From positions 1 through 35,536 of the IMG/VR virus record IMGVR_UViG_3300028840_002094: a DNA stretch of 35,536 nucleotides; one strand, written 5' to 3'. The DNA comes from a virus. The notes beneath the pieces are model-generated. The model saw only the letters and a program-made list of their open reading frames with translations, was not told the DNA's origin and ran no database searches. The translations under genes were made by a program, and so were the position numbers. Of the stretch, positions 11 through 32,598 are shown in pieces. The stretch's first letter is position 1, and the number at the start of each line of letters is the position of its first letter.

Positions 11-3000
11 ATGAACTACGAACTAGAGCGCATAAAACTATCAGCCAAATGCAACCACAACAACCAACCTATTGCATGGCCCAAGCAAGTTGAGCCCCGC
101 ATTCTCTGCGTAGTAGGAGAGTCCCTCGGCAAGGACGAACTAGCTGCCATAAACGACCCAGGCATCCTAGACAAGTACTTCGTAGGTGCAGCGGGACATC
201 TCCTTAATAAACTCCTCAACGAGAGTAATCTAATCCGTGCCTCAATGCACATCACTAACGTAGTCAAAGTCTATATCCCTTCAGTCACAGACAAGGAAGC
301 CTATCTAAACAGCGTCGGGTTGTCTATAGAAGACTTCCTGCCGTTGCTCACAGCCGAGCTACAAAAGGTCCAGCCCAGTGCCATCTTAGCGACGGGCGCA
401 ATCGCAATGCAAGCCATCACAGGCAAGACAGGTATAACAAAGTGGCGTGGATCGTTGCTCGACTGTGTACTTGAAGGGGTGGATTGTATGGTCGTGCCTA
501 CATTCCACCCCTCCTACCTACAGAGGGGACAGATGAAATACTACCCTTATGTGAGGAATGACATAAAACAATTCGCCCAGGTTGGGTATGGATTCAGAGA
601 ACCAGAGCCCTCATTTATCCCCCTTATAGACCCATCCCTTACTGAAGCCTTAGACTATCTAAGTGACATATATCTTAACTCAACCCATACTTGCTTCGAC
701 ATAGAGACAGTAGGTGCGGAGAAGATAACCTGCATAGGGTGGACTAAGGATGAGAATAATTGCATCAGCATCCCATTCAGATATAAGGGGTTGAAGAATA
801 GATGGTCCGAGCCTGAGCAGATTATGTTATGTCATGCCATGAGGGAGGTGTATGGGAAGGCAGGACTTGTGAAGATAGGCCAAAATATGCACTACGACAT
901 GCACTTTCTTCAACCTCTATTTGGCTTCCCTGCCGAGCCACTGTTTGACACTATGTACGCTCATTCACTCATCCACGTAGACGCTAAGCATGACTTAGGC
1001 TTTCTCACCTCTGTCTACACCGACCTACCCTACCATAAGGACGAGAATAAAGACTGGGAAGCTAAATCAATCCCCCATGACGAGGCACTGTGGGGATACA
1101 ATGCTAAGGACGTTATAGCTACTCATAGAGTGTATATAAAACTAAAAAAAGACCTAGAAGAGTACGGCTTGTATGACTTCTTCACTGGCTACGTCATGCC
1201 TTTCAGACGTGTATTGTTTGAGATGGAACATAGAGGACTAAGGGTTGATCTCAAGCTCAGGGAGGAGTGGCAGGACTTCGTGCGGGATGAAGAGCTTCCA
1301 GTTGCCCTAGAGATATTAGAAAAAATGGCAGGCGAGCCTCTCAACCCTAATTCCTCACCCCAAGTAGGAAAGTACATAGAAGAAAAGCTCAAAATCAAAG
1401 TCAGGCGCACTGCTAAAGGAAACTACACCGTAAAGGAAGAAGTCCTAGAAGCCATGATCGCTCGTAATCCTAAGCACCGAGAGCTGCTAAAGCAAATCTT
1501 ATGCACTAGAGTGCTAAAATCTAAAGACCTAGGCACCTACCTTACAGCTCCCCTTAGTGCCGATGGACGCATGCGTACTGGGTTCGGCACAACCATAACT
1601 GGACGCCTGACATCTAAGGCAAACCACAAGGGAGAGGGTACTAATCTCCAGAACCAACCTAAGAAGTTTAGACAAATGTACCTCCCTGAGAAAGGTCATG
1701 TCTTTCTAGAGCCTGACCTCTCCCAAGCTGAAGCACTAGAAATGGCATTCCTTATGCGGAACGAAGAACTAAAGAAACGTATGCTAGGTGGGGAGAAAAT
1801 ACACAAAATAGTAGGAGAATGGATATATGGAAAACCAGGAGACAAACTCACAGATGAAGAATATCTCACTAGCAAACGGTGTGTGCACGGATGTGTGGAT
1901 GACCTGACTGAAGTACTTACACCAAATGGGTGGCTACCAATAGGGCAATCACAAGGTCGGAAGATAGCACAATGGGACGCTAAGACCTGGAACATCACAT
2001 TCAATAAGCCTATTATACTACGCTCGTTTAATTATGATGGACCTATGGTGCAATTAACACAAGGATATTTTAACCAGTGCCTTAGTCCAGCACACAAAAT
2101 GCCACACTGGCAAGTAAAATACGGTAGACAGAGAAAAGAAGTCCACGGCCCTACAAGAGACATATTGGCTGCACAATTCTCCCATAGACGTAATTCCTAC
2201 AAACTACCACTAAGTGGAACATTTCAAGGCACAGGCGTGATTAGTTCCTGGGATGCTAGATTACTAGTTGCCGTTCAGGCTGACTGTAGTGTTAGACCCT
2301 ACGGCGCGATAGAAGCCAATTTTGTGAAGGATAGAAAGATAATTAGGCTAGTACAAATACTAAACGCATTAGGAGTAGACTATACTACCTATCCCTATAA
2401 ACATAATCGAAAGAGCGCAAAGTCTTTCTACATACCACCTCAACCAAAAACTAAGAGACTAATGAGTTATTTAGATAAAAGAAAACAGTTCCAATGGAAG
2501 TTACTGCACGACACTAGTCATGTCTCCGCAACCGCGTTCTTGGAGGAACTAAGTTTTTGGGACGGAAGACAGAATTCAGAGGACTCGTGGCAATATTACA
2601 CAACATCCCTACAAAATGCAGAGTTTGTATCGACTCTTGCACACTTAACGAACAAGCGTGGAATAATAGCACGCAGACAGAACTATTGGGAAGAACAAAG
2701 AACTAAAGACCTATTTACAGTAAGCATCTCTAATTACCCACTAGGAGACTTAACTGAGATGGTTACAGGCAAGACACGAACATCTGACAAAATATTTTGC
2801 CCAACAACCAATACAGGATACTTTTTAATACGACGCAAGGGACGCATTTCTATAACTGGAAACTCTAATTATGACATGGGGGAACAAAAGTTTGCGACAG
2901 TCATTGGGAAGCCTGTCAAGGACGCTAGAGAATTTAGAGAACACTATCATAGGGTCGTCCCCACCCTCAAAAGGTATCACTTGGAAGTTCAAAATAAACT

Positions 3001-3349
3001 TAATGACACAAGACGTCTCGTCACCCCTTATGGTAGAATACGAGTTTTCACTGGACGCCTCGATGACGAAGCATTTAGGTCAGGTTATGCTCAAATACCT
3101 CAATCAACTGTTGTCGACACAATCAACCTGGGTACATTAGGGTTGTGGTTATGTAAGCCCGATGAGGTCTATATAGCTACACAGGTGCATGATAGTATTC
3201 TTATCAGCACACCTCCAGAGCTAGTAGAAGAGTTGAGTGAGCTGATTAAACTGCATTTGGAGACTTTAAGAGAACATGAGGTTGAAGGAGACATGCTTAC
3301 AATCCCTGTAGATATAGGCAAGACTAAAGAGAATTGGTACGGTCATTGA
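11..3349 (+). CDS. polA: UDG-like / 3'-5' exonuclease / family A DNA polymerase fusion, interrupted by an intein
   Basis: Phage replicative DNA polymerase; 1112 residues as translated, about 788 after removal of the intein. Residues 1-190 resemble a family 4 uracil-DNA glycosylase domain (GES near 36-38, FVGAAG at 57-62, ITNVVK at 81-86, HPSYLQR at 166-172). The DEDD proofreading exonuclease follows: D230/E232, N292/D296, and Y363/D367. The PolA palm and fingers show motif A (PDLSQAEALE, D569), motif B split by the intein (K622/R623 ... SNYDMG from 952) and motif C (QVHDS, D1061). All the catalytic acids I looked for are present, so proofreading and synthesis should both be active. A UDG-Exo-PolA order is known for phage SPO1 polymerase. 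The N-terminal cysteines expected for a family 4 Fe-S cluster are not obvious, so glycosylase activity is doubtful. It heads the + strand replication block; its last bases overlap the next small ORF. Confidence 0.95.
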   Translation: MNYELERIKLSAKCNHNNQPIAWPKQVEPRILCVVGESLGKDELAAINDPGILDKYFVGAAGHLLNKLLNESNLIRASMHITNVVKVYIPSVTDKEAYLNSVGLSIEDFLPLLTAELQKVQPSAILATGAIAMQAITGKTGITKWRGSLLDCVLEGVDCMVVPTFHPSYLQRGQMKYYPYVRNDIKQFAQVGYGFREPEPSFIPLIDPSLTEALDYLSDIYLNSTHTCFDIETVGAEKITCIGWTKDENNCISIPFRYKGLKNRWSEPEQIMLCHAMREVYGKAGLVKIGQNMHYDMHFLQPLFGFPAEPLFDTMYAHSLIHVDAKHDLGFLTSVYTDLPYHKDENKDWEAKSIPHDEALWGYNAKDVIATHRVYIKLKKDLEEYGLYDFFTGYVMPFRRVLFEMEHRGLRVDLKLREEWQDFVRDEELPVALEILEKMAGEPLNPNSSPQVGKYIEEKLKIKVRRTAKGNYTVKEEVLEAMIARNPKHRELLKQILCTRVLKSKDLGTYLTAPLSADGRMRTGFGTTITGRLTSKANHKGEGTNLQNQPKKFRQMYLPEKGHVFLEPDLSQAEALEMAFLMRNEELKKRMLGGEKIHKIVGEWIYGKPGDKLTDEEYLTSKRCVHGCVDDLTEVLTPNGWLPIGQSQGRKIAQWDAKTWNITFNKPIILRSFNYDGPMVQLTQGYFNQCLSPAHKMPHWQVKYGRQRKEVHGPTRDILAAQFSHRRNSYKLPLSGTFQGTGVISSWDARLLVAVQADCSVRPYGAIEANFVKDRKIIRLVQILNALGVDYTTYPYKHNRKSAKSFYIPPQPKTKRLMSYLDKRKQFQWKLLHDTSHVSATAFLEELSFWDGRQNSEDSWQYYTTSLQNAEFVSTLAHLTNKRGIIARRQNYWEEQRTKDLFTVSISNYPLGDLTEMVTGKTRTSDKIFCPTTNTGYFLIRRKGRISITGNSNYDMGEQKFATVIGKPVKDAREFREHYHRVVPTLKRYHLEVQNKLNDTRRLVTPYGRIRVFTGRLDDEAFRSGYAQIPQSTVVDTINLGTLGLWLCKPDEVYIATQVHDSILISTPPELVEELSELIKLHLETLREHEVEGDMLTIPVDIGKTKENWYGH
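1892..2863 (+). mobile_element. Intein with LAGLIDADG endonuclease domain inside polA motif B
   Basis: In-frame 324-residue insertion at host residues G627/S952. It starts with Cys628 in CVDDLTEVLTPNGW, a typical intein block A. A block B-like segment has SPAH at 692-695 in place of TxxH. It ends ISITGN followed by Ser952 as the +1 nucleophile. The penultimate residue is Gly, not the usual His, a tolerated but less common C-terminus. The centre holds two LAGLIDADG-like helices: LLVAVQADCS (acid D758) and FLEELSFWDG (acid D851), so the homing endonuclease may still be active. Removing it restores a polymerase motif B reading KRCVHG-SNYDMG, as in other phage PolA enzymes. Insertion at a catalytic motif is typical of inteins. 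Boundaries follow from the block A/G motifs and from extein continuity. Confidence 0.93.
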
Positions 3350-3528
3350 TATATAGGATTCTACATATTTTAGCATTGAGTATAGGACTAACACTAGTTG
3401 GTCTATCATACCTAGCAGTATGCCTAATAACCCTAATCGAGAGGAGACTAAAATGCCCCACGGACAACTTAAACCACCACCAAGAAAACCCCTCATCAAA
3501 CCACCACCTGACACGGCCATCATCTTAG
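3334..3528 (+). CDS. Small single-pass membrane protein, possible
   Basis: A 64-residue ORF starting at TTG, overlapping the last codons of polA. It contains one strong hydrophobic segment (about residues 9-33, ILHILALSIGLTLVGL), then IERR, then a polar His/Asn/Ser-rich tail. An AAAGAGA stretch just before the TTG could act as ribosome binding site; a TTG at 3346 is an alternative start. The tail overlaps the zinc-ribbon gene in another frame, so the C-terminal half may be constrained by that gene. Function unknown. The main support is that two more tiny membrane ORFs occur in the same + strand block. Confidence 0.4.
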   Translation: MVRSLIYRILHILALSIGLTLVGLSYLAVCLITLIERRLKCPTDNLNHHQENPSSNHHLTRPSS

Positions 3529-3680
3529 AGGAGAGATGTCCGTTTTGCAATCGTGACTTCATACTAGAGAAGGGTGGTTCTGTGTGCTGCCCATGTGGTT
3601 ACACTATAGCCATGGAGGAGGAAGACGGATGGAAGCTCTATTGCAGTGCCCCGAGTTCGGAGTTATTCAACACTGGCTAG
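3453..3680 (+). CDS. Small zinc-ribbon protein
   Basis: A 75-residue protein. I chose the ATG at 3453 rather than the in-frame ATG at 3420 because GAGAGGAG lies at ideal spacing before it. The N-terminus is proline- and lysine-rich (PPPRKPLIKPPP). The second half has CPFC, then CCPCG and a final C, spaced like a zinc ribbon (CxxC ... CxCG). Such small ribbons in phages commonly bind nucleic acid or act as adaptors for replication or transcription complexes. The exact role here is unknown; the position between polymerase and ATPase suggests a replication or early function. Confidence 0.7.
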   Translation: MPHGQLKPPPRKPLIKPPPDTAIILEERCPFCNRDFILEKGGSVCCPCGYTIAMEEEDGWKLYCSAPSSELFNTG

Positions 3681-3751
3681 ACTGCCCATTGGTGTGGTGG
3701 AGTGTAGTATTGTTATTGGTGTGTTTCATAATTGAAAGGACAAGACGATGA
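3629..3751 (+). CDS. 40-residue single-pass membrane peptide
   Basis: The ATG at 3629 is preceded by GGAGGAGG at good spacing, a strong ribosome binding site. The peptide ends at a TGA that overlaps a following ATG (ATGA at 3748-3751). It has a polar N-terminus (MEALLQCPEFGVIQHWLDC), one hydrophobic helix (PLVWWSVVLLLVCFII) and a basic end (ERTRR), so the C-terminus is probably cytoplasmic. It overlaps the end of the zinc-ribbon gene. The ATG at 3748 opens a 16-codon frame (to 3798) that overlaps the start of the ATPase and could couple its translation. No family recognised. Confidence 0.6.
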   Translation: MEALLQCPEFGVIQHWLDCPLVWWSVVLLLVCFIIERTRR

Positions 3752-3772
3752 ACTGGAGCTGCGTTTTAGAGT

Positions 3773-4993
3773 ATGCCTTTACTAACGACAAAGCGTGAGT
3801 TTGCCAACTGGATAGAAGCATACAGAGAATATACCCAATATCAAGAAGCATGTGGAAAGTTTCATACATGGATAGCCCTCAGCACGATAGCCTCAGTAGT
3901 TAGACGCAATGTATGGCTAGATAGAAAACAATGGAAGTTGTTTCCTAATCTTTATGTGGGAATAATTGGCCCCACCGGAGATGGCAAGACCACAGCAGCA
4001 GACATTAGTGTCGAGATACTAACAGAGCTAAAGCTGAATCAAAAACTTGAAGTCGTGCAGGAGAGGGCTACTTCTTTTTATGTCCTAGAGCTAATGCAAC
4101 AGCTCACTAACAAGGTAGGGTCTGCCTGTTTTACTCTATATGCACCAGAGATGAAGAACTTCATGACTGACATGAACAAGGGTGAGCTAGTTACTATACT
4201 CACTTCTTTCTACACCTGTCCGTCCTATAGGGAGTATAGAACTAAGACACAGATTAAGGATGGTGATTACTACAAGTATAAGGAAATATGTATCAACGTC
4301 CTGGCTTGCTCTACTCCTGAGTGGCTCACTATGGGGACTAGTGCTGAAGATGTCTACGGTGGATTTACTGGTAGATTCATCTACGTCTACAATGCTGGCT
4401 CGACTAGATCATGCCCATTTCCTGAGGATGACATTCCTCAACATGTCCTGGATATGAAACCCCGCCTGATTCATGACCTCCAAATAATAGGCAACCTAGT
4501 AGGTAACTTCGTCATAGACGACGATGCTAAGATGATCTATAGGGTGTGGTATGAGGACAGGATGAAGGAATGCACCGATGAAAGACTCAGAGGTTATTAT
4601 TCTAGAAAACGAGACACGGTCCTAAAAGTAGCCATGCTCCTTAGTCTAGCCACCAAAAATGCACTAGAGATAACCGTAGATGACATGAACGCAGCGTGGA
4701 AAACACTAGCAGACGTAGAGCAAAAAATGGGAGATGCCTTTGCAGGAATAGTAGAAGATCCTGCCTTGAGATATCAAGACCTAGTCACAGCACAGATAAG
4801 TACATCACCAGGGATGCAGATTAGCAGAGCAGAGCTGTTGAGGAAAAACTACCATAAGTTCGACTATGTAGTACTAGATAGAATAACTACAAACCTACAC
4901 GGCAGGGGGATAATAGAGGTGACTAACCAACGGGCTAAGGGAGGCAGGATAGAGATAATGTATAGGATGATTGATGTGGATGGGACTACATAA
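3773..4993 (+). CDS. P-loop ATPase, DUF3987-like / phage helicase-primase-type
   Basis: A 406-residue protein with a clear Walker A motif GPTGDGKTT (residues 66-74). A buried strand near 128 (FTLYAPEMKNF) may supply the acidic residue. A GGFTGRFIYVY segment near 199-209 looks like an arginine-finger region. The overall arrangement resembles the DUF3987 family of phage and plasmid ATPases, often found with primases or helicases. The C-terminal 80 residues look like a winged-helix tail (RAELLRKNYHKFDYVVLDRITTNL split over a turn). It is probably the replicative helicase/loader partner of the polymerase. The ribosome binding site is weak; a 16-codon ORF overlaps its start, so translational coupling is possible. 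Its stop (TAATG) overlaps the next tiny ORF. Confidence 0.8.
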   Translation: MPLLTTKREFANWIEAYREYTQYQEACGKFHTWIALSTIASVVRRNVWLDRKQWKLFPNLYVGIIGPTGDGKTTAADISVEILTELKLNQKLEVVQERATSFYVLELMQQLTNKVGSACFTLYAPEMKNFMTDMNKGELVTILTSFYTCPSYREYRTKTQIKDGDYYKYKEICINVLACSTPEWLTMGTSAEDVYGGFTGRFIYVYNAGSTRSCPFPEDDIPQHVLDMKPRLIHDLQIIGNLVGNFVIDDDAKMIYRVWYEDRMKECTDERLRGYYSRKRDTVLKVAMLLSLATKNALEITVDDMNAAWKTLADVEQKMGDAFAGIVEDPALRYQDLVTAQISTSPGMQISRAELLRKNYHKFDYVVLDRITTNLHGRGIIEVTNQRAKGGRIEIMYRMIDVDGTT

Positions 4994-5076: not shown

Positions 5077-8000
5077 AAGTCCTGGGAACCTGGGAGGAAA
5101 CGGAGGACGCCTTATTGGTTCTATATACCTACCTAGTCCAATGTCTGCTACATTACCACCGCGTGAATACGCACGCTTCATCTTAGCAGCCTGTCTGATA
5201 CCAGGGACACCTATAAACGTACCGACCACCTGTAAGACATCACGGGCAGGAACCTTCCTCCCTCCACTCTTAGCTTGATACCAGTTAATAAAGTCTGTGG
5301 CTTGGTCTACAGTAGGACCTGCGACTGACGTACCATATCTAAATGAGGAGGCAGGAAATGGCATAAGCTCCGCACACTCACCCATTGCGGACAATAGTGC
5401 CCACCTCCAACTAAGTCCTTCCTCTAGTCTCTCCTTAAACTTCCTTATTGGTGCACCGAATGGTGAGGTCATACCCATTGCGTCTTCGTAGAACATATTG
5501 ACTAGAGCGGTGGTCACAAAGTACTTAGCCATTTGACTGGCTCTTTGAGCCTTAGACTTAGGCACTCTCTTTCCCAGGATATCATGGAAAAAGAAATTAG
5601 CATCGTTAATGACAAAGGTCTGAAACATCGTGAGTGATCTACCGAACGCAGTACGTTGAGCAGGAGAGATGTCTAGGGGTGAACTGCTGGCTTGCGTTCT
5701 ATTTACGACATCATCAGCGAATCTAATGGCTTGCTCCTCACCTACCTTCATTCCTTTAGCTTTCCTATAAGCACCCTCCCACGTAGCTAATGCAGTGTAG
5801 AAATCAAGCGTTTGAAGTGGCTTCATGCCTTTTCTTCCAATCCATTCAGCGAAGGGGTAAAAGTACTGCCCTTGTTTCATTCCGGCGTATACTTCCTTAG
5901 TGAACAACTCTTGCGCCCTACCCATCAATACACGAGACTTCCCCATAGCTCTGTTCTTCAGTCCTGGATCGAGTAAACTCATTATGCCCTTTAAGGTATT
6001 TACTGGACCTATTTCTACTACGGAGTTCCTAATAGCAGACGGTTGAATAAAAGCTGACCTAACATTGAAGCTGAGCAACGCGTAGCCAAAGTGACTATTC
6101 ATTCTCTTGAGCTTATTTGTAACTTCCGGTCCCCAAATCTTATCAGTACCCTCAGGCATCCCCGCAGCGTAGTTCAACCAGTCCTGTAACATGGCATAGT
6201 TCCCTGGCATCCTTTTCTGTGGGTCGTATATCTTAGGTATCCGCTTTCCATCTGCGTCTACCTTAAAATTCCCGTCCTTCTTCATCTGCCACCCAACTTG
6301 CCAAGGCTGGAGTAAGTCTCTGAGGTGGGAAATAGTAGGGGTCATATGTATATGACGCGTAGAGTACCTTAAATACCTCCTGATTAGTTCCTTAGCATCA
6401 ATGAGAGGTTTATATCTAGCTTGTGTTCTGGGTTCCAAGAACGGTGCATGTGTAGCTCTAGGACGGACGAATTGGTCCATAGCCTTCTGCACCTGCCCTG
6501 GCTCTATGCCTACGTAGCCCAGTCCGAAGGTCTGCATATAATTAGCAGCCTGTGCAAACGTGAAGTAGTTCTTTACTTTAGGCATAGGTTTAAGTCCTGC
6601 CATCGCACGTGCATCATTGATTTGTGTATACTGGCTTTCTAGTATTTCCCTTAATGCTAAATAAGCGTTGTGCTCGGCAGGACGTTTAGTGGCGAAACTA
6701 TTGAGGAGGTCACGAATGTATTTCTTGCTACGTCCTGCCTTCAGCAAAAGCCTTCGACCATTAACCTGTCTAGCGTAAGCAAACTCCGCAATCCTCTCCG
6801 ACGCACCTAAAGGCAAACCCTTAAAGATATCAGTAACTCTCCGATTAAGAATGTCTAAATGTAGCATAGCCCTGTGTTCTGCTATTTTCATTGGCCAGTA
6901 GAACAAGTTAACCGCATCAGGACCCATTTCTGCTATCTGTCTGTTAGACGTAAGTAATTGCTTTCTAACATAAGGCCAAAATGTACGCAACTCTGGGTCC
7001 TTCATATCGCGGATTATGTTTAACTCCAGCACAGTTCGACCAGTGTTTACTTTACTGCCTCCAGACCCCTGCACCTTCAATGCTGCGTCGATCCTGAGTA
7101 TGGCATTCTTGCTTAGATTAGGATGTCTTGCCTTGTAGTCCTCTGCTATTGATTTATAAATCTCACCTACAGTTGGATTTTGTACTTCTACGGCCTGAGG
7201 CATGACGTCATGATAGGCGAATCTACTAGTCTGATTAGGCTTAGAATCTACCTTCACCCATACATCACCAGACTTATCTATGTGTGAAACAATCCCTGCT
7301 TCACCCTTAGCGAAGACTCTCATTCCTTTCTTCAAATCAGGGAACACTACATCCTTATAACTTAACCCCTTCTGCCTGAGTTTAAGCATAAAGTCCTCAA
7401 ACTGGGCTAGGTCCTTTAGCTGTCTAGCCTCCTTAGCTGTCTTGCCCTGTCCTAGTGTATAAATAAAACCTATAGCAAAGTTCCTTGCAGCACCCCTTAC
7501 GTCTGTAGGGTCCTCTGCCAACGACTGAGCAGCGAACAGCGATCCGACACCAGGAGCGTAAAACGCACGTCTGGCGTACTTCCCGAACTTAAAGATAGGT
7601 CCCATAGCAGCACCCATCCCAGTGCCTTTTAGAAAACCTGGCATGCCTTCTTGCATTCCGCCATGAAAACCACCTACTGCACCCAATGATATACTAGGGT
7701 GGGTCTTCATAGCCATTAGTGGAATTAGGTCCGCGAATCCATCAGTGAGACCGAAAGAAACTTCTTCCCAAAAACCCTCAGGCTGGTAGTCCGATGGAGG
7801 ACCGAATGTCTTGCTCAACCACTCAAATGCCATCTGTGGTTCCATACCTGTGTACTGTCCTACTACGTCAGCAGCTTTCTGAAACTCATCCATCCATCGC
7901 TTAGTCCCATGAGCAGCACCATAAAAAGGAGCCCTCATGCCACGTACTTGACGTCCTGTCCACTCAGCCACACTGAAGGGCTTATCAGGTATAGGCTCCT

Positions 8001-26667: not shown

Positions 26668-28248
26668 CTAATCTCGATGTTGCACGGTGTGTAAATAACC
26701 GTCTTTAATATGGCTGAGGTTTTCTAAGTTCTGTCTACATGGCGTGTATGAGGGCAGGAAGGTCAAAGCCTCCTTAAAACACGCCTCTGCATGGTTTAAG
26801 TGTTTGGACATCATAAAAGCTACTCCAAGTATGTTCCACACCTCCCATATACGCTGAGTACCGTCGAAGTTGTGGAGTATGTAGGAGGCATGTTTGAGTA
26901 CTTCCCAGGATCGTCCCTGTCTTGCCCAGAACAAGCAAGCCTGCATTCGGGCAGAGCAAGAGCTTGACTTGAAACTGAGCGGTTGTCCTGGCGGAGCCTT
27001 CATCCTTAGGTGCTTCAGATAGCTATGGTAGGCTATATCAAAACAGAACTCACTCAAAGAATACTGAAGCACTAAGAGGAGCATCACAATACCCACCCAC
27101 AGTGTCCCACCAGGCACGCTGAATGAAGAACCCATCACGCTGCCCATGCTAAGCACGATAAGCCCCCAGTACATACCATTAGTTGATCTCAGAGTGTGGA
27201 AGTGCATAGTTCCACCAGCCACTATAAACCCCACTATAGCAGCAGTCACGTACATATTAGGAGCGAGCACAATGGCACCGATAATGGGAGCTAACATCAG
27301 AATTAGTCCAACAAACCCCCAATCAACTATCCATTGCAACATATCACTGTGTGCTCTAGTAGGCCACGGAGCCTCGTAGTTGTGAGACATCAAGAACCTA
27401 CCATTGGACTCCTCATTTAACTGACGCTGCACGAAGGGAACTGCAACCCCGAACATGTCCGCACCTAGGCCGAAGATTGGTTTCTTCAAGGCTTGTCTCA
27501 TAGCTACCTTCCAGTAGTTCCTACGCTCCTTAGCAGTATTTACCTTGAATAACTCTGGTCTATAAGCCCTAATAGCTATTGAACCCACCACCAACCCGAG
27601 AGCTATAAGCCCCCACAACAAAGTACTTCCTAAACCTATAGCTAGGACAACTCCCCCAACCAAGGTGCCTAGGAAGACTCCCCTTGCCTTAGTCAGCCAT
27701 ATCGTTACCAGTAACACAAGGGAACTAACAAACCACCAAGGACTATGGTAGCTAACTAAAAGCAAGGAGAGGAAAAAACAAATCAACAAAAATCCACCAT
27801 GTTGAAGCGTATTACCATGAGATCCTATGCACTGTGTAGGAAGACTAGGCTCTCCGAATGGGTCGAGTTTTCTAGTCTGAAGAATACCAAATACCGCACT
27901 AAGCAATCCACTCGATACTAGAATCATCAGCCCATATAAGCTGTACTTGAGGTGCATACAGACTATGAGCGTAGCTATGAGTGGAATAGTATTTGTGAGG
28001 GCCTGCTTGGGACGAGGGGAGTTCACAGCGCACAAAAGCCACCACACCATAATTGCTCCTAGTAGTCCAACTACCTCGCCACTCAAACTAAAACTGGCAC
28101 CCCACAGTGCATCGCTAAAAAGCAGGCCGACGGAGGACAGCCCGATGAACAAATCACGAGGAGTCGTGTACGTACTCACACATAATGGTCCTAGCATAAG
28201 CACGTTGTAGATTCCTATGATTATATAGGGTGCCAGTTCACTTAGCAC
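26668..28248 (-). CDS. O-antigen ligase/polymerase-like (Wzy_C/WaaL type) membrane protein with C-terminal TPR
   Basis: 526 residues with about ten or more membrane segments (first 130 residues and 150-230, then 310-400). Features of the O-antigen ligase/polymerase superfamily are visible: TKARGVFLG (R189) at the start of a span, a large loop with NYWKVAMRQALKKPIFGLG (to G260), and RAHSDMLQWIVDWGFVGLI (H300) leading into the next span. The last 100 residues form TPR-like helical repeats (ACLFWARQGRSWEVLKHAS and NHAEACFKEALTFLPSY), as in some ligases and oligosaccharyltransferases. It could polymerise or transfer O-antigen or other glycan in the host envelope, changing the phage receptor or excluding other phages. 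GTG start at 28248 overlaps the previous gene; a later start cannot be ruled out. Confidence 0.75.
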   Translation of the reverse strand: MLSELAPYIIIGIYNVLMLGPLCVSTYTTPRDLFIGLSSVGLLFSDALWGASFSLSGEVVGLLGAIMVWWLLCAVNSPRPKQALTNTIPLIATLIVCMHLKYSLYGLMILVSSGLLSAVFGILQTRKLDPFGEPSLPTQCIGSHGNTLQHGGFLLICFFLSLLLVSYHSPWWFVSSLVLLVTIWLTKARGVFLGTLVGGVVLAIGLGSTLLWGLIALGLVVGSIAIRAYRPELFKVNTAKERRNYWKVAMRQALKKPIFGLGADMFGVAVPFVQRQLNEESNGRFLMSHNYEAPWPTRAHSDMLQWIVDWGFVGLILMLAPIIGAIVLAPNMYVTAAIVGFIVAGGTMHFHTLRSTNGMYWGLIVLSMGSVMGSSFSVPGGTLWVGIVMLLLVLQYSLSEFCFDIAYHSYLKHLRMKAPPGQPLSFKSSSCSARMQACLFWARQGRSWEVLKHASYILHNFDGTQRIWEVWNILGVAFMMSKHLNHAEACFKEALTFLPSYTPCRQNLENLSHIKDGYLHTVQHRD

Positions 28249-30240: not shown

Positions 30241-30272
30241 AATTTATCTCCTTCGTCTATGGGCAGACTCTA

Positions 30273-30292
30273 GCCCCCATTGGCTTGGGGGC
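30273..30292 (-). other. Stem-loop downstream of the capsid gene
   Basis: GCCCCCA and TGGGGGC pair (30273-30279 with 30286-30292) around the loop TTGGCT, 11 bases after the capsid stop. No U-tract follows in the - direction. Likely an mRNA-stabilising or read-through-limiting structure at the end of the most highly expressed virion gene. Confidence 0.6.
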
Positions 30293-30302
30293 AGGAGCTC
30301 CA

Positions 30303-30979
30303 CTAGCTAATTGATTTAATGTATCCTTGCCACCTAGGCGCAACGCAACACAAAGCACCCGCAAAAAGGAGTTGTCTCACGACAGCATCTTGATTAAGGG
30401 GCACCTTCTTGTCGGTCCACACCATATTGCGCTTAGAATGCACGACCATTTTCCAATAATCCGTATTCAGGAAGAAAGCATATCCTGAAGGACAATGGGC
30501 GTCGACCACGACTGTGGCCTGGTTGAAGTTAATCCCAGTGAAACCCGCAGCAGCCAGACCAGGAGTAGCGGTCATATTATTGCGCTGTTGCGGCTGGACT
30601 CTAAGCCAGAGTTTATCGAATACGTCCTGCGTTGTGATGATGAGGTCAGGGTGAATACTGCCGTCTGAACAATCACCATACATTCCTTGGAACATATCCA
30701 TACTAAAGGCGCCACCAGTGGAGTTCACGTTGCCCTGCCACCAACTATAGGTAGCCTTGGCAATCTCTCCATAGGTCCCGCTTGTGGCAATAGCCAAGAC
30801 CAGCGGAACAAGGGCCTTATTGATTTGGGCTGTGGAGAAGATGGTCTGAGAAAACTCCCTAGTCAGGGTCTTCTGTGCATTCTCCATCTTGGTCTGGACA
30901 ATACTCAGCACTTTCTCATCACCTTCTACCTTTAAGGTTGTCTCACCATCCAAGGTCACGTTCACGTCAGTTATGTTAT
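30303..30979 (-). CDS. Major capsid protein, exon 3
   Basis: Third coding piece of the capsid gene, about 225 residues. In the spliced frame it begins YNITDVNVTLDGETTLKVE and runs to the stop at 30303. Segments fit a HK97-fold-type or P22-coat-type phage capsid: EKVLSIVQTKMENAQKTL, SGTYGEIAKATYSWW, HPDLIITTQDVFDKLW (a typical capsid segment), NFNQATVVVDAHCPSGYAF and RQLLFAGALCCVAPRWQG. The stand-alone frame would start only at a GTG inside the exon with no ribosome binding site, so it is not a separate gene. The join with exon 2 at 31684/30979 (TTG T|AT AAC) restores one continuous frame. Confidence 0.88.
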
Positions 30980-31683
30980 CGTAGAGTCATTTAAACACTA
31001 CTTCTTACGATTTCTCGCAAGCTCGGACTATATCTTCCCTTTCGGGGCGGGCACTCGTGTTGGACTTATTGGTTATAGCATCCTCGTCCATTAGTCTCTG
31101 AACCTTCCACTCTACTATGTTAGCTATATTCGAGTGGCTTGGCTGCTGATTGTCCTCAGCCACACTGTTAGGATATCCCAGCAGTTCACCCGCTTTGTCT
31201 ACATGACCAGCTCCCTTATTCAAAGCACGTATTACATGGTAAAATGCTGCTCTCTTGAGTGTCTCACCGTGCGGAGTCTCTCTCCACCTTCGCCACCCAG
31301 AAGTCTCATAAAACATGATACCTAGTTCCACTTGTGCTTTCTTTACACGTACCCAAGGTCTTAACACACTAATGATAGCATAGGCAGTCTTACCTCCAGC
31401 TTGCCAATACCCCATTTTGCCACAGTATAAAGTATCGTTGATCTTATTCACTACATTGGACCCAGTCACATGACCTAAGCCTACCACAGACTGACACCAA
31501 TCCAAGATCCAACGATCCTGCTGCACTATCTGGAATCTCAGCATGTATGAAGGGTTCTTTAAACCACCATAAACATGAGGTTTGGGTTTCAACTTACCTA
31601 TAGTAAGAGTCCCCTCACCGTCGAATAAGCCTCCGATGTACGCTAATTCAAGTTCACTAGCCATGAGGTTGCCTCGTAATTTG
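30980..31683 (-). ncRNA. Group I intron 2 in the capsid gene (ribozyme with embedded LAGLIDADG gene)
   Basis: 704 bases. P1 is visible: exon ...GTTGT|C pairs with GGCAAC a few bases downstream, with the U.G wobble at the splice site. The core follows late: GACAATCAGCAGCCAAGCC (P3/P4 region, 31136-31154), AGACTA (31092-31097) and GATATAGTCC (TAGTC at 31026-31030) forming P7, then a P9 hairpin CTTGCGA-GAAA-TCGTAAG (31004-31021). The intron ends with G30980 (omega G) before the exon ATAACATA. Cutting there gives Leu-Leu-Tyr-Asn in the capsid frame; every other omega-G choice leads to a stop. The ribozyme core overlaps the 3' part of the endonuclease gene. Confidence 0.88.
31005..31664 (-). CDS. 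LAGLIDADG homing endonuclease in intron 2
   Basis: 219 residues from the ATG at 31664, just after the P1 helix. The single LAGLIDADG motif reads LAYIGGLFDGEGTLTI (about 7-22, with conserved DGEG). One motif means it should act as a dimer. The C-terminal third is the translation of the ribozyme core: EDNQQPS comes from the P3/P4 sequence, and QRLMDE from the P7 5' strand. The stop lies in the P9 hairpin. That C-terminus is probably non-essential for DNA cutting. It should promote homing of the intron to capsid genes lacking it. Confidence 0.9.
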   Translation of the reverse strand: MASELELAYIGGLFDGEGTLTIGKLKPKPHVYGGLKNPSYMLRFQIVQQDRWILDWCQSVVGLGHVTGSNVVNKINDTLYCGKMGYWQAGGKTAYAIISVLRPWVRVKKAQVELGIMFYETSGWRRWRETPHGETLKRAAFYHVIRALNKGAGHVDKAGELLGYPNSVAEDNQQPSHSNIANIVEWKVQRLMDEDAITNKSNTSARPEREDIVRACEKS

Positions 31684-31880
31684 ACAACAGTTTCCAGTCC
31701 CACTTGGCCAGCGTGGTGGTCTCTATCTGACTTACATCAAACGTGTCGAGCCCACTATACCAACCGTGAGGGAGTTCTCCATACAGGACAGGCTGTGCTA
31801 CCTTGTCGCCTGAATCGTACACTACCTTCGATTTGCTCATTCCTGTAGGCAATATGTTATCGACAGGCTTTTTATCCTGC
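31684..31880 (-). CDS. Major capsid protein, exon 2
   Basis: Middle coding piece, about 65 codons. Reads ...QDKKPVDNILPTGMSKSKV, then VVYDSGDKVAQPVLYGELP, then TLAKWDWKLL at the intron 2 border. The YDSGDKVAQPVLYGEL segment is typical of the P22-like capsid N-terminal region (DGGxxIxQPLxYGE). The 5' edge is uncertain: exon 2 may start at 31880 (GT|G CAG), 31883 (GT|A AGG CAG) or 31860 (G|AT AAC). The longer versions match the residue spacing I expect before the DSG segment. No ribosome binding site, so it is not a separate gene. Confidence 0.82.
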
Positions 31881-32542
31881 CTTCTTACGCTTTCACGCAA
31901 GTTCAGACTATATCATACCTAGTGAAGTAGGTCCGGGCGCTCTTGCGCAGAATTACTGTTGGGACTCGTCTGCGTAGTCGTTACACGTTCCTCAGAACCT
32001 ATGCCCTCTGAGGCTTCGCTCGGTGTTAACATATCCAAGAACTCTCCTACAAGTGGACTTAGTCGTTCACCGAATTCACCCGATTTTCCATGAAAGGTCA
32101 TCGACTCCCGTCGATTTAACAGACCCATAATTTGTGCACCTAACTCACGCAACCGTAGTTCATATGGAGTAAGTTTAACTGCACCTCTAGGTCTGTGACC
32201 GAAGCAGACATCATAAAACCATATAGCAAATTCAGCCCGTTGTTTCTTGGCACTCAAGTAAGGTAATAATTGCTGCAACACTAAAGCAGCTTTCGACTGC
32301 CAAATGCCAACTTCGAAGACATCGCCATGACGCTTTGCCTTCACACCACAGAGCTTGGCAAATCGGTCTACACACTCTTTACTCTGCATGCCTACCTTTA
32401 TCCCCATCGTAACGTGCTTACGTCTTAGCCTGGGGATGTAGCTCTGTGTGATTCTAATAGTTCCCTCTCCGTCAAAGAGTCCAGCTAAATATGCTATTTC
32501 TGTTTCGTTCATATTCACTACCTTCCACGCGGCCCTTAATCG
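31881..32542 (-). ncRNA. Group I intron 1 in the capsid gene (ribozyme with embedded LAGLIDADG gene)
   Basis: About 662 bases (680 in an alternative model). A P1 candidate pairs exon CGGT|C with GGCCG, giving the U.G wobble after GT at 32543. The P7 strands are GCAGAC (31968-31973) and GTCTGA (31903-31908), within the group I signature GATATAGTCTGAAC. A P9 hairpin CTTGCGTGAAAGCGTAAG (31884-31901) copies that of intron 2. The 3' end is less certain: omega G may be 31881, 31884 or 31861. The first two keep the canonical P1 and a full-length capsid; the last mirrors the intron 2 end (hairpin GGCAGG...CCTGTC then G) but needs an unusual 5' site. The core overlaps the endonuclease 3' end. Confidence 0.82.
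31919..32512 (-). CDS. LAGLIDADG homing endonuclease in intron 1
   Basis: 197 residues from the ATG at 32512 (a GTG two codons upstream is possible). Motif IAYLAGLFDGEGTIRIT near residues 6-22 with the catalytic DGEG acid; one motif, so it is probably a homodimer. The body (VTMGIKVGMQSKECVDRFA, DVFEVGIWQSKAALVLQQL) is typical of this family. The C-terminus (TPSEASEGIGSEERVTTTQ) is the translation of the group I core, not a functional domain. Its relation to the intron 2 enzyme is limited to the motif region by eye, so the two introns were probably acquired separately. Confidence 0.9.
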   Translation of the reverse strand: MNETEIAYLAGLFDGEGTIRITQSYIPRLRRKHVTMGIKVGMQSKECVDRFAKLCGVKAKRHGDVFEVGIWQSKAALVLQQLLPYLSAKKQRAEFAIWFYDVCFGHRPRGAVKLTPYELRLRELGAQIMGLLNRRESMTFHGKSGEFGERLSPLVGEFLDMLTPSEASEGIGSEERVTTTQTSPNSNSAQERPDLLH

Positions 32543-32598
32543 ACCGGAATATATTTGTCACGGACGTGTGCGTCTATCTCGTCATATGTCAAAGCCAT
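32543..32598 (-). CDS. Major capsid protein, exon 1
   Basis: The capsid start: ATG at 32598 with GAGGAG upstream, reading MALTYDEIDAHVRDKYIP then V at the intron border. The MALTYDEI...KYIP opening is typical of the N-terminus of this capsid family. The genomic frame stops two codons later (GTC GAT TAA) inside the intron. The exon is only about 19 codons; without splicing no capsid could be made. The full spliced protein would be about 303-310 residues depending on the intron 1 junction model. Confidence 0.85.

Follow-up and report, generated by a model that had tools for sequence, protein, structure and literature searches.

The major capsid gene of this phage is interrupted by two group I introns, probably mobile, each with an endonuclease gene of its own, and as recorded it shows a separate loss of 37 nt; we hold this reading with high confidence. 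The window, ie the whole stretch of 35,536 nucleotides that was analysed (IMG/VR virus record IMGVR_UViG_3300028840_002094), carries the gene on its minus strand as three coding blocks, at 32598-32543, 31849-31684 and 30967-30303. The introns, their junctions (placed by homology), the endonuclease genes and the missing codons are all apparent at the level of sequence. The five main segments are as follows.

32543 to 32598, minus strand: exon 1, MALTYDEIDAHVRDKYIPV, 56 nt, with a Shine-Dalgarno sequence, GAGGAG, just upstream
31850 to 32542, minus strand: group I intron 1, 693 nt, with an Rfam RF00028 core at 32156-31884
31684 to 31849, minus strand: exon 2, 166 nt, from alignment with the relatives L001, L091 and L093
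30968 to 31683, minus strand: group I intron 2, 716 nt, with an Rfam RF00028 core at 31243-31004
30303 to 30967, minus strand: exon 3 with the stop codon, from the phrog_9953 and Pfam SU10_MCP matches

Exon 3 alone matched phrog_9953, 'major head protein', with an E value of 2e-30, and Pfam SU10_MCP with an E value of 3e-7. The protein of exons 2 and 3 together scored 191 bits against NCBIfam NF033394 (phage major capsid protein, cut-off 80 bits) and covered profile positions 33-310 of 311. A full-length match to this profile was not reached in the window, as the recorded sequence offers no in-frame join for the N-terminal part; the proteins of L091 and L093 cover positions 1-310. The AlphaFold model of the L091 protein (mean pLDDT 81) matches HK97-fold capsids, and on that model the gene is an HK97-fold major capsid gene of a phage. 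No relative of the capsid protein was found in a search of 84,980 bacterial and archaeal genomes.

Both insertions are absent from the three close relatives, in all of which the N-terminus is complete. The L091 capsid protein is uninterrupted, 307 amino acids long and 71% identical to the window protein; that of L093 is also uninterrupted, and that of L001, 76% identical to the window protein, has its intron elsewhere in the gene. An earlier interpretation made from the letters alone (the sequence-only reading) had proposed two LAGLIDADG-bearing group I introns within the capsid gene, and the Rfam matches, the similarity of the nucleases to I-MsoI and I-CreI and the comparison with these three relatives, a check it had itself suggested, all bear this out. 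The finding it had named as contrary, relatives carrying the intervening sequence as protein, is contradicted, since the close relatives lack the insertions. It is very improbable that there are no introns, with the intervening sequence forming part of the protein or with separate genes lying around free-standing endonuclease genes: the capsid frame is interrupted by stops, two ribozyme cores are present, and exactly these segments are absent from the relatives with the residues at the junctions intact.

The coding blocks were compared with L001 codon by codon. In exon 1 the same residue is found at 17 of the first 18 codons, nine of these by way of synonymous changes; the one left over is the initiation codon (ATG versus GTG). 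Exon 2 has 26 codons with synonymous changes only versus nine replacements, and exon 3 has 93 versus 55 with a changed residue. This excess of synonymous changes indicates that the capsid protein has been under selection and that the gene was intact until recently.

The Rfam group I models, which the sequence-only reading had recommended running on the minus strand, detected both cores. That of intron 2 scored 66.1 bits against RF00028 (E 8e-15), above the curated cut-off of 50 bits; that of intron 1 scored 48.3 bits (E 9e-11) over the full model length, 1.7 bits below the cut-off. A single core was found by this search within intron 1. Both introns hold an extra 30-40 nt between the 5' strand of P7 and the 3' strand of P3, and when a group IA assignment was sought in both through P7.1/P7.2 folding, the folds were no better than those of shuffled sequences. 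The following elements were located, P1 by sequence and fold, P7 by the Rfam alignment and P9 by the Rfam alignment and fold.

32530 to 32546, minus strand: P1 of intron 1, CGGU/C...GGCCG, with the pair U32543.G32533
31668 to 31688, minus strand: P1 of intron 2, GUUGU/C...GGCAAC, with the pair U31684.G31672
31906 to 31914, minus strand: 3' strand of P7 in intron 1, GATATAGTC
31026 to 31034, minus strand: 3' strand of P7 in intron 2, GATATAGTC
31884 to 31901, minus strand: P9 hairpin of intron 1, CUUGCGU-GAAA-GCGUAAG
31004 to 31021, minus strand: P9 hairpin of intron 2, CUUGCGA-GAAA-UCGUAAG

The P9 hairpins are near-identical, as had been noticed before, and the closing U.G pair of intron 1 is A-U in intron 2. 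The P1 with its U.G wobble, the P7, the P9 and the omega G earlier described for intron 2 were all recovered, and the P1 U.G pair and the omega G are found at both introns, the latter as the last base of each (...TTG/ and ...CTG/, the slash here and below marking the splice point). Intron 2 has the junctions CTGTTGT/CAAATTACGAGGCAAC at its 5' end and GATAACATAACTG/ACGTGAACG (CTG/ACGTG) at its 3' end. Its removal gives CTGTTGT/ACGTGAAC, read as KLL/YVNV, with residues identical to those of L001 and found likewise in the intron-free relatives, so that the claim of an exactly restored frame at this junction holds. The corresponding junctions of intron 1 are CCGGT/CGATTAAGGGCCG and GATAACATATTG/CCTACAGGA. 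Its 3' end, GATAACATA-TTG/, parallels the GATAACATAACTG/ of intron 2, and the layout is alike at both ends; an AGG adjoining P1 could pair with the CCU at the start of the 3' exon, a possible P10. The first nine bases of exon 2, CCTACAGGA, correspond to L-Q-[D] in the alignment with L001, L091 and L093, and removal of intron 1 gives CCGGT/CCTACAGG, ie KYIPV-LQ, which matches the KYIPVLQD of L001 up to LQ. The strength of the P1 stems was rejected as statistical proof, not being significant alone and serving as support only: stems of similar quality occur at 38% and 18% of the U's on the minus strand and are thus common by chance. Because stems this good are not rare there, the placement of the junctions rests on homology. 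Skipping of exon 2 was also considered, and the join of exon 1 to exon 3 is out of frame.

Each intron contains one LAGLIDADG gene.

31919 to 32512, minus strand: LAGLIDADG gene of intron 1, 197 amino acids, I-MsoI/I-CreI-like, its 3' part overlapping the ribozyme core
31005 to 31664, minus strand: LAGLIDADG gene of intron 2, 219 amino acids, I-CreI-like, its 3' part overlapping the core through P9

The intron 1 nuclease matched phrog_5046 (E 7.5e-18) and an I-MsoI chain (E 3e-8), and the intron 2 nuclease matched phrog_5046 (E 5e-14) and an I-CreI-derived chain (E 5e-6); matches to Pfam LAGLIDADG_1/_3 stayed below the cut-off. There is a single LAGLIDADG motif in each (LAGLFDGEG and IGGLFDGEG, respectively), and the two proteins share 28% identity over 131 aligned positions. 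Among the viral contigs searched, no relative of either endonuclease was found. Over the ribozyme cores the frames remain free of stops for the last 72 codons in intron 1 (p ~0.02) and the last 94 in intron 2 (p ~0.005), from which the overlap of both frames with the cores is probably genuine. Endonuclease frames that overlap intron cores are known (PMC3984707).

Elsewhere in the window, an ORF for a family A DNA polymerase (11-3349, plus strand) has an N-terminal uracil-DNA-glycosylase-like domain at about residues 33-187. Around residues 625-955 it also has an apparent intein of about 330 residues (CVDDLTEV...ISITGN/S), inserted in a conserved region around KRCVHG/SNYDMG, where the Pfam and PHROG matches break. 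A gene for an O-antigen ligase-like protein (Wzy_C, E 4e-11) is located among the phage virion genes at 26668-28248 on the minus strand. The gap that separates the capsid gene from the following one (30241-30302, minus strand) contains a hairpin-like G+C-rich sequence together with the string GTCTGCCCATAGAC, conserved with the matching gap in L001.

The sequence-only reading had expected that a full capsid protein would result once both introns were removed. This is not the case for the sequence as recorded. Joined at the P1 and omega-G sites, exons 1 and 2 read ...KYIPVLQE and then a stop: the frame is shifted and ends at a TGA, and 37 nt, accounting for 13 conserved residues, are absent.

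31840 to 31841, minus strand: point of the missing 37 nt (13 residues, DAFYYSFPLMVQL in L001), from alignment with the relatives

The recorded sequence across this point is CAGGAATGAGC. In the window LQ is followed by GA and next by ATGAGC (MSK), and the TGA of the shifted frame overlaps the ATG at the deletion point (GGAATGAGC). Between LQ and MSK the relatives have D-AFYYSFPLMVQL (L001), D-QFYYSTPLMAQL (L091) and D-QYFKSNPLWTQL (L093), a segment that reads DxFYYSxPLMxQL in two of them, and none of the other relatives aligned (77 of 77) has a gap in the 13 columns. In the L091 model these residues complete the first helix and make up most of the second, with pLDDT of about 85-89. After splicing, the recorded copy would therefore lack about 13 conserved codons and hence encode no complete capsid protein.

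The segment was sought across the whole window, by tblastn with the peptide and by a scan of all frames, and nothing convincing was found. It could in principle be supplied by a micro-exon inside intron 1, which would then be two tandem introns and not one. Small exons and exon skipping are known in phage group I systems, and tandem introns with a micro-exon between them have a precedent in phage phiNIT1 (PMC11878797). However, the best 13-residue match in intron 1 scores only 4, where the close relatives reach 33-45, the top score of the entire window (20) comes from inside another gene, and one ribozyme core only was found in intron 1; we regard a micro-exon as extremely improbable. Alternative pairs of U/ and G/ ends within a few tens of bases were also tried, and in-frame joins exist, each of them short of at least 11 of these residues. 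Since the missing codons cannot be recovered by any splice choice nearby, we read the 37-nt loss most probably as a deletion that arose recently in this genome or as an error of assembly, and not as a feature of splicing.

The second of these, in which exon 2 is intact in the phage and 37 nt were dropped from the contig, is one branch of our preferred explanation and is given slightly less than an even chance. The exons are conserved on both sides of the loss, and the N-terminus is complete in three close relatives. Against it, neither N's nor a long repeat are seen at the site, and where there is no repeat it is rare for a short-read assembler to drop 37 nt. Other genes look intact, and the open frames of the remaining long genes in the window speak against an assembly of poor quality overall. 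No other record of the genome turned up. Should the assembly be in error here, the sequence-only reading would be fully right.

We think it unlikely that the phage tolerates a real loss and makes a working shortened capsid from the spliced message, through a restart at ATGAGC or a small shift of a splice site. In favour of this, exons 2 and 3 are open and conserved, and the stop and start overlap as ATGA. A 5' site moved 4 nt downstream (CCGGTCGAT/) would give KYIPVD-PTGMSKSK, and a 3' site moved 8 nt downstream KYIPV-MSKSK, both in frame and bounded by U and G; the former forfeits the P1 pairing seen at CCGGT/, however, and the latter the ending common to intron 2. All such variants are without at least 11 residues that are present in every relative and lie within two predicted helices. 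As for the restart, ATGAGC has no well-spaced Shine-Dalgarno sequence, and the conservation of exon 1 is that of coding sequence. It is more doubtful still that the loss is genuine and that intron 1 acts in the control of capsid expression, either with a 22-codon leader followed by termination and restart at ATGA or with an alternative splice giving a shortened N-terminus.

The preferred explanation, two introns and a separate loss, would work as follows. Two independently mobile introns, each with a LAGLIDADG endonuclease of the I-CreI/I-MsoI type, would occupy two conserved sites in the capsid gene. We infer, from what known phage introns do, that they self-splice from the late transcript by two transesterifications, using the U of the 5' exon paired with G in P1 and the omega G at the 3' end. 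The endonucleases would cut the intron-free alleles of co-infecting relatives, and the introns would thereby be copied in. The 37-nt loss in the recorded gene, sited right after the intron 1 junction, would be separate from the introns.

Other members of the capsid family have introns of the same general kind. The L001 gene has its own group I intron at a third site (5366-6360, V209/Q210), with a junction AGGGT/...ACTG/GCAACC that restores the capsid frame as LRVQPQQ. In L076, a more distant relative, an intron at a fourth site (about 3239-3990, within ST-Y-QR) has the junction AGCACCT/...CAACAGTG/ATCAACGC and restores STYQRYSG in frame. Their Rfam scores, 25.5 and 25.8 bits respectively, are below the cut-off, yet in both the junctions that restore the frame are clear. 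The U/...G/ junction and the combination of a group I intron with a LAGLIDADG gene are shared with the window; the insertion sites differ. The L001 intron encodes a 269-amino-acid nuclease of LAGLIDADG_2, a different subfamily from both nucleases of the window, and the LAGLIDADG gene of L076 is antisense. One capsid family has thus been invaded at four or more different sites, which makes capsid genes of podovirus-like phages a recurrent target for introns, joining the usual targets polymerase, terminase and reductase.

Two introns in one late virion gene had been called unusual in the sequence-only reading, which is overstated in view of Twort orf142 and LittleE (PMC3706429 and PMC11878797). 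That reading was correct that the introns are close together, although they are separated by 166 nt (exon 2) and not by 180-200 bases. The major capsid gene of mycobacteriophage LittleE contains an intron whose splicing was shown by RT-PCR and N-terminal sequencing (PMC3706429). As in the window, it has an I-CreI-related LAGLIDADG gene, a U before the intron and a G at its end; unlike the window, there is one intron only, the endonuclease gene is antisense and the phage is unrelated. Orf142 of Staphylococcus phage Twort is interrupted by three group I introns and shows exon skipping (Landthaler and Shub 1999, as cited in PMC11878797). It is likewise an abundant virion gene with several group I introns, but it is a tail tube and not a capsid gene, and exon skipping in the window would be out of frame. 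In the Bastillevirinae, some genes contain two or three group I introns together with genes for endonucleases, and splicing has been shown with cDNA (PMC11878797). Several endonuclease-bearing introns per gene are found there as in the window; the genes, however, are those for DNA polymerase, terminase and nucleotide functions, and the nucleases are mostly HNH. The kind of arrangement described here is thus already known, from the LAGLIDADG-bearing capsid intron of LittleE and the multi-intron phage genes such as that of Twort. To these the window adds a clear example in which a major capsid gene holds two group I introns, both endonuclease-bearing and 166 nt apart, and it illustrates that genes spliced on paper need to be checked against intron-free relatives, a check which here exposed 13 missing conserved residues.
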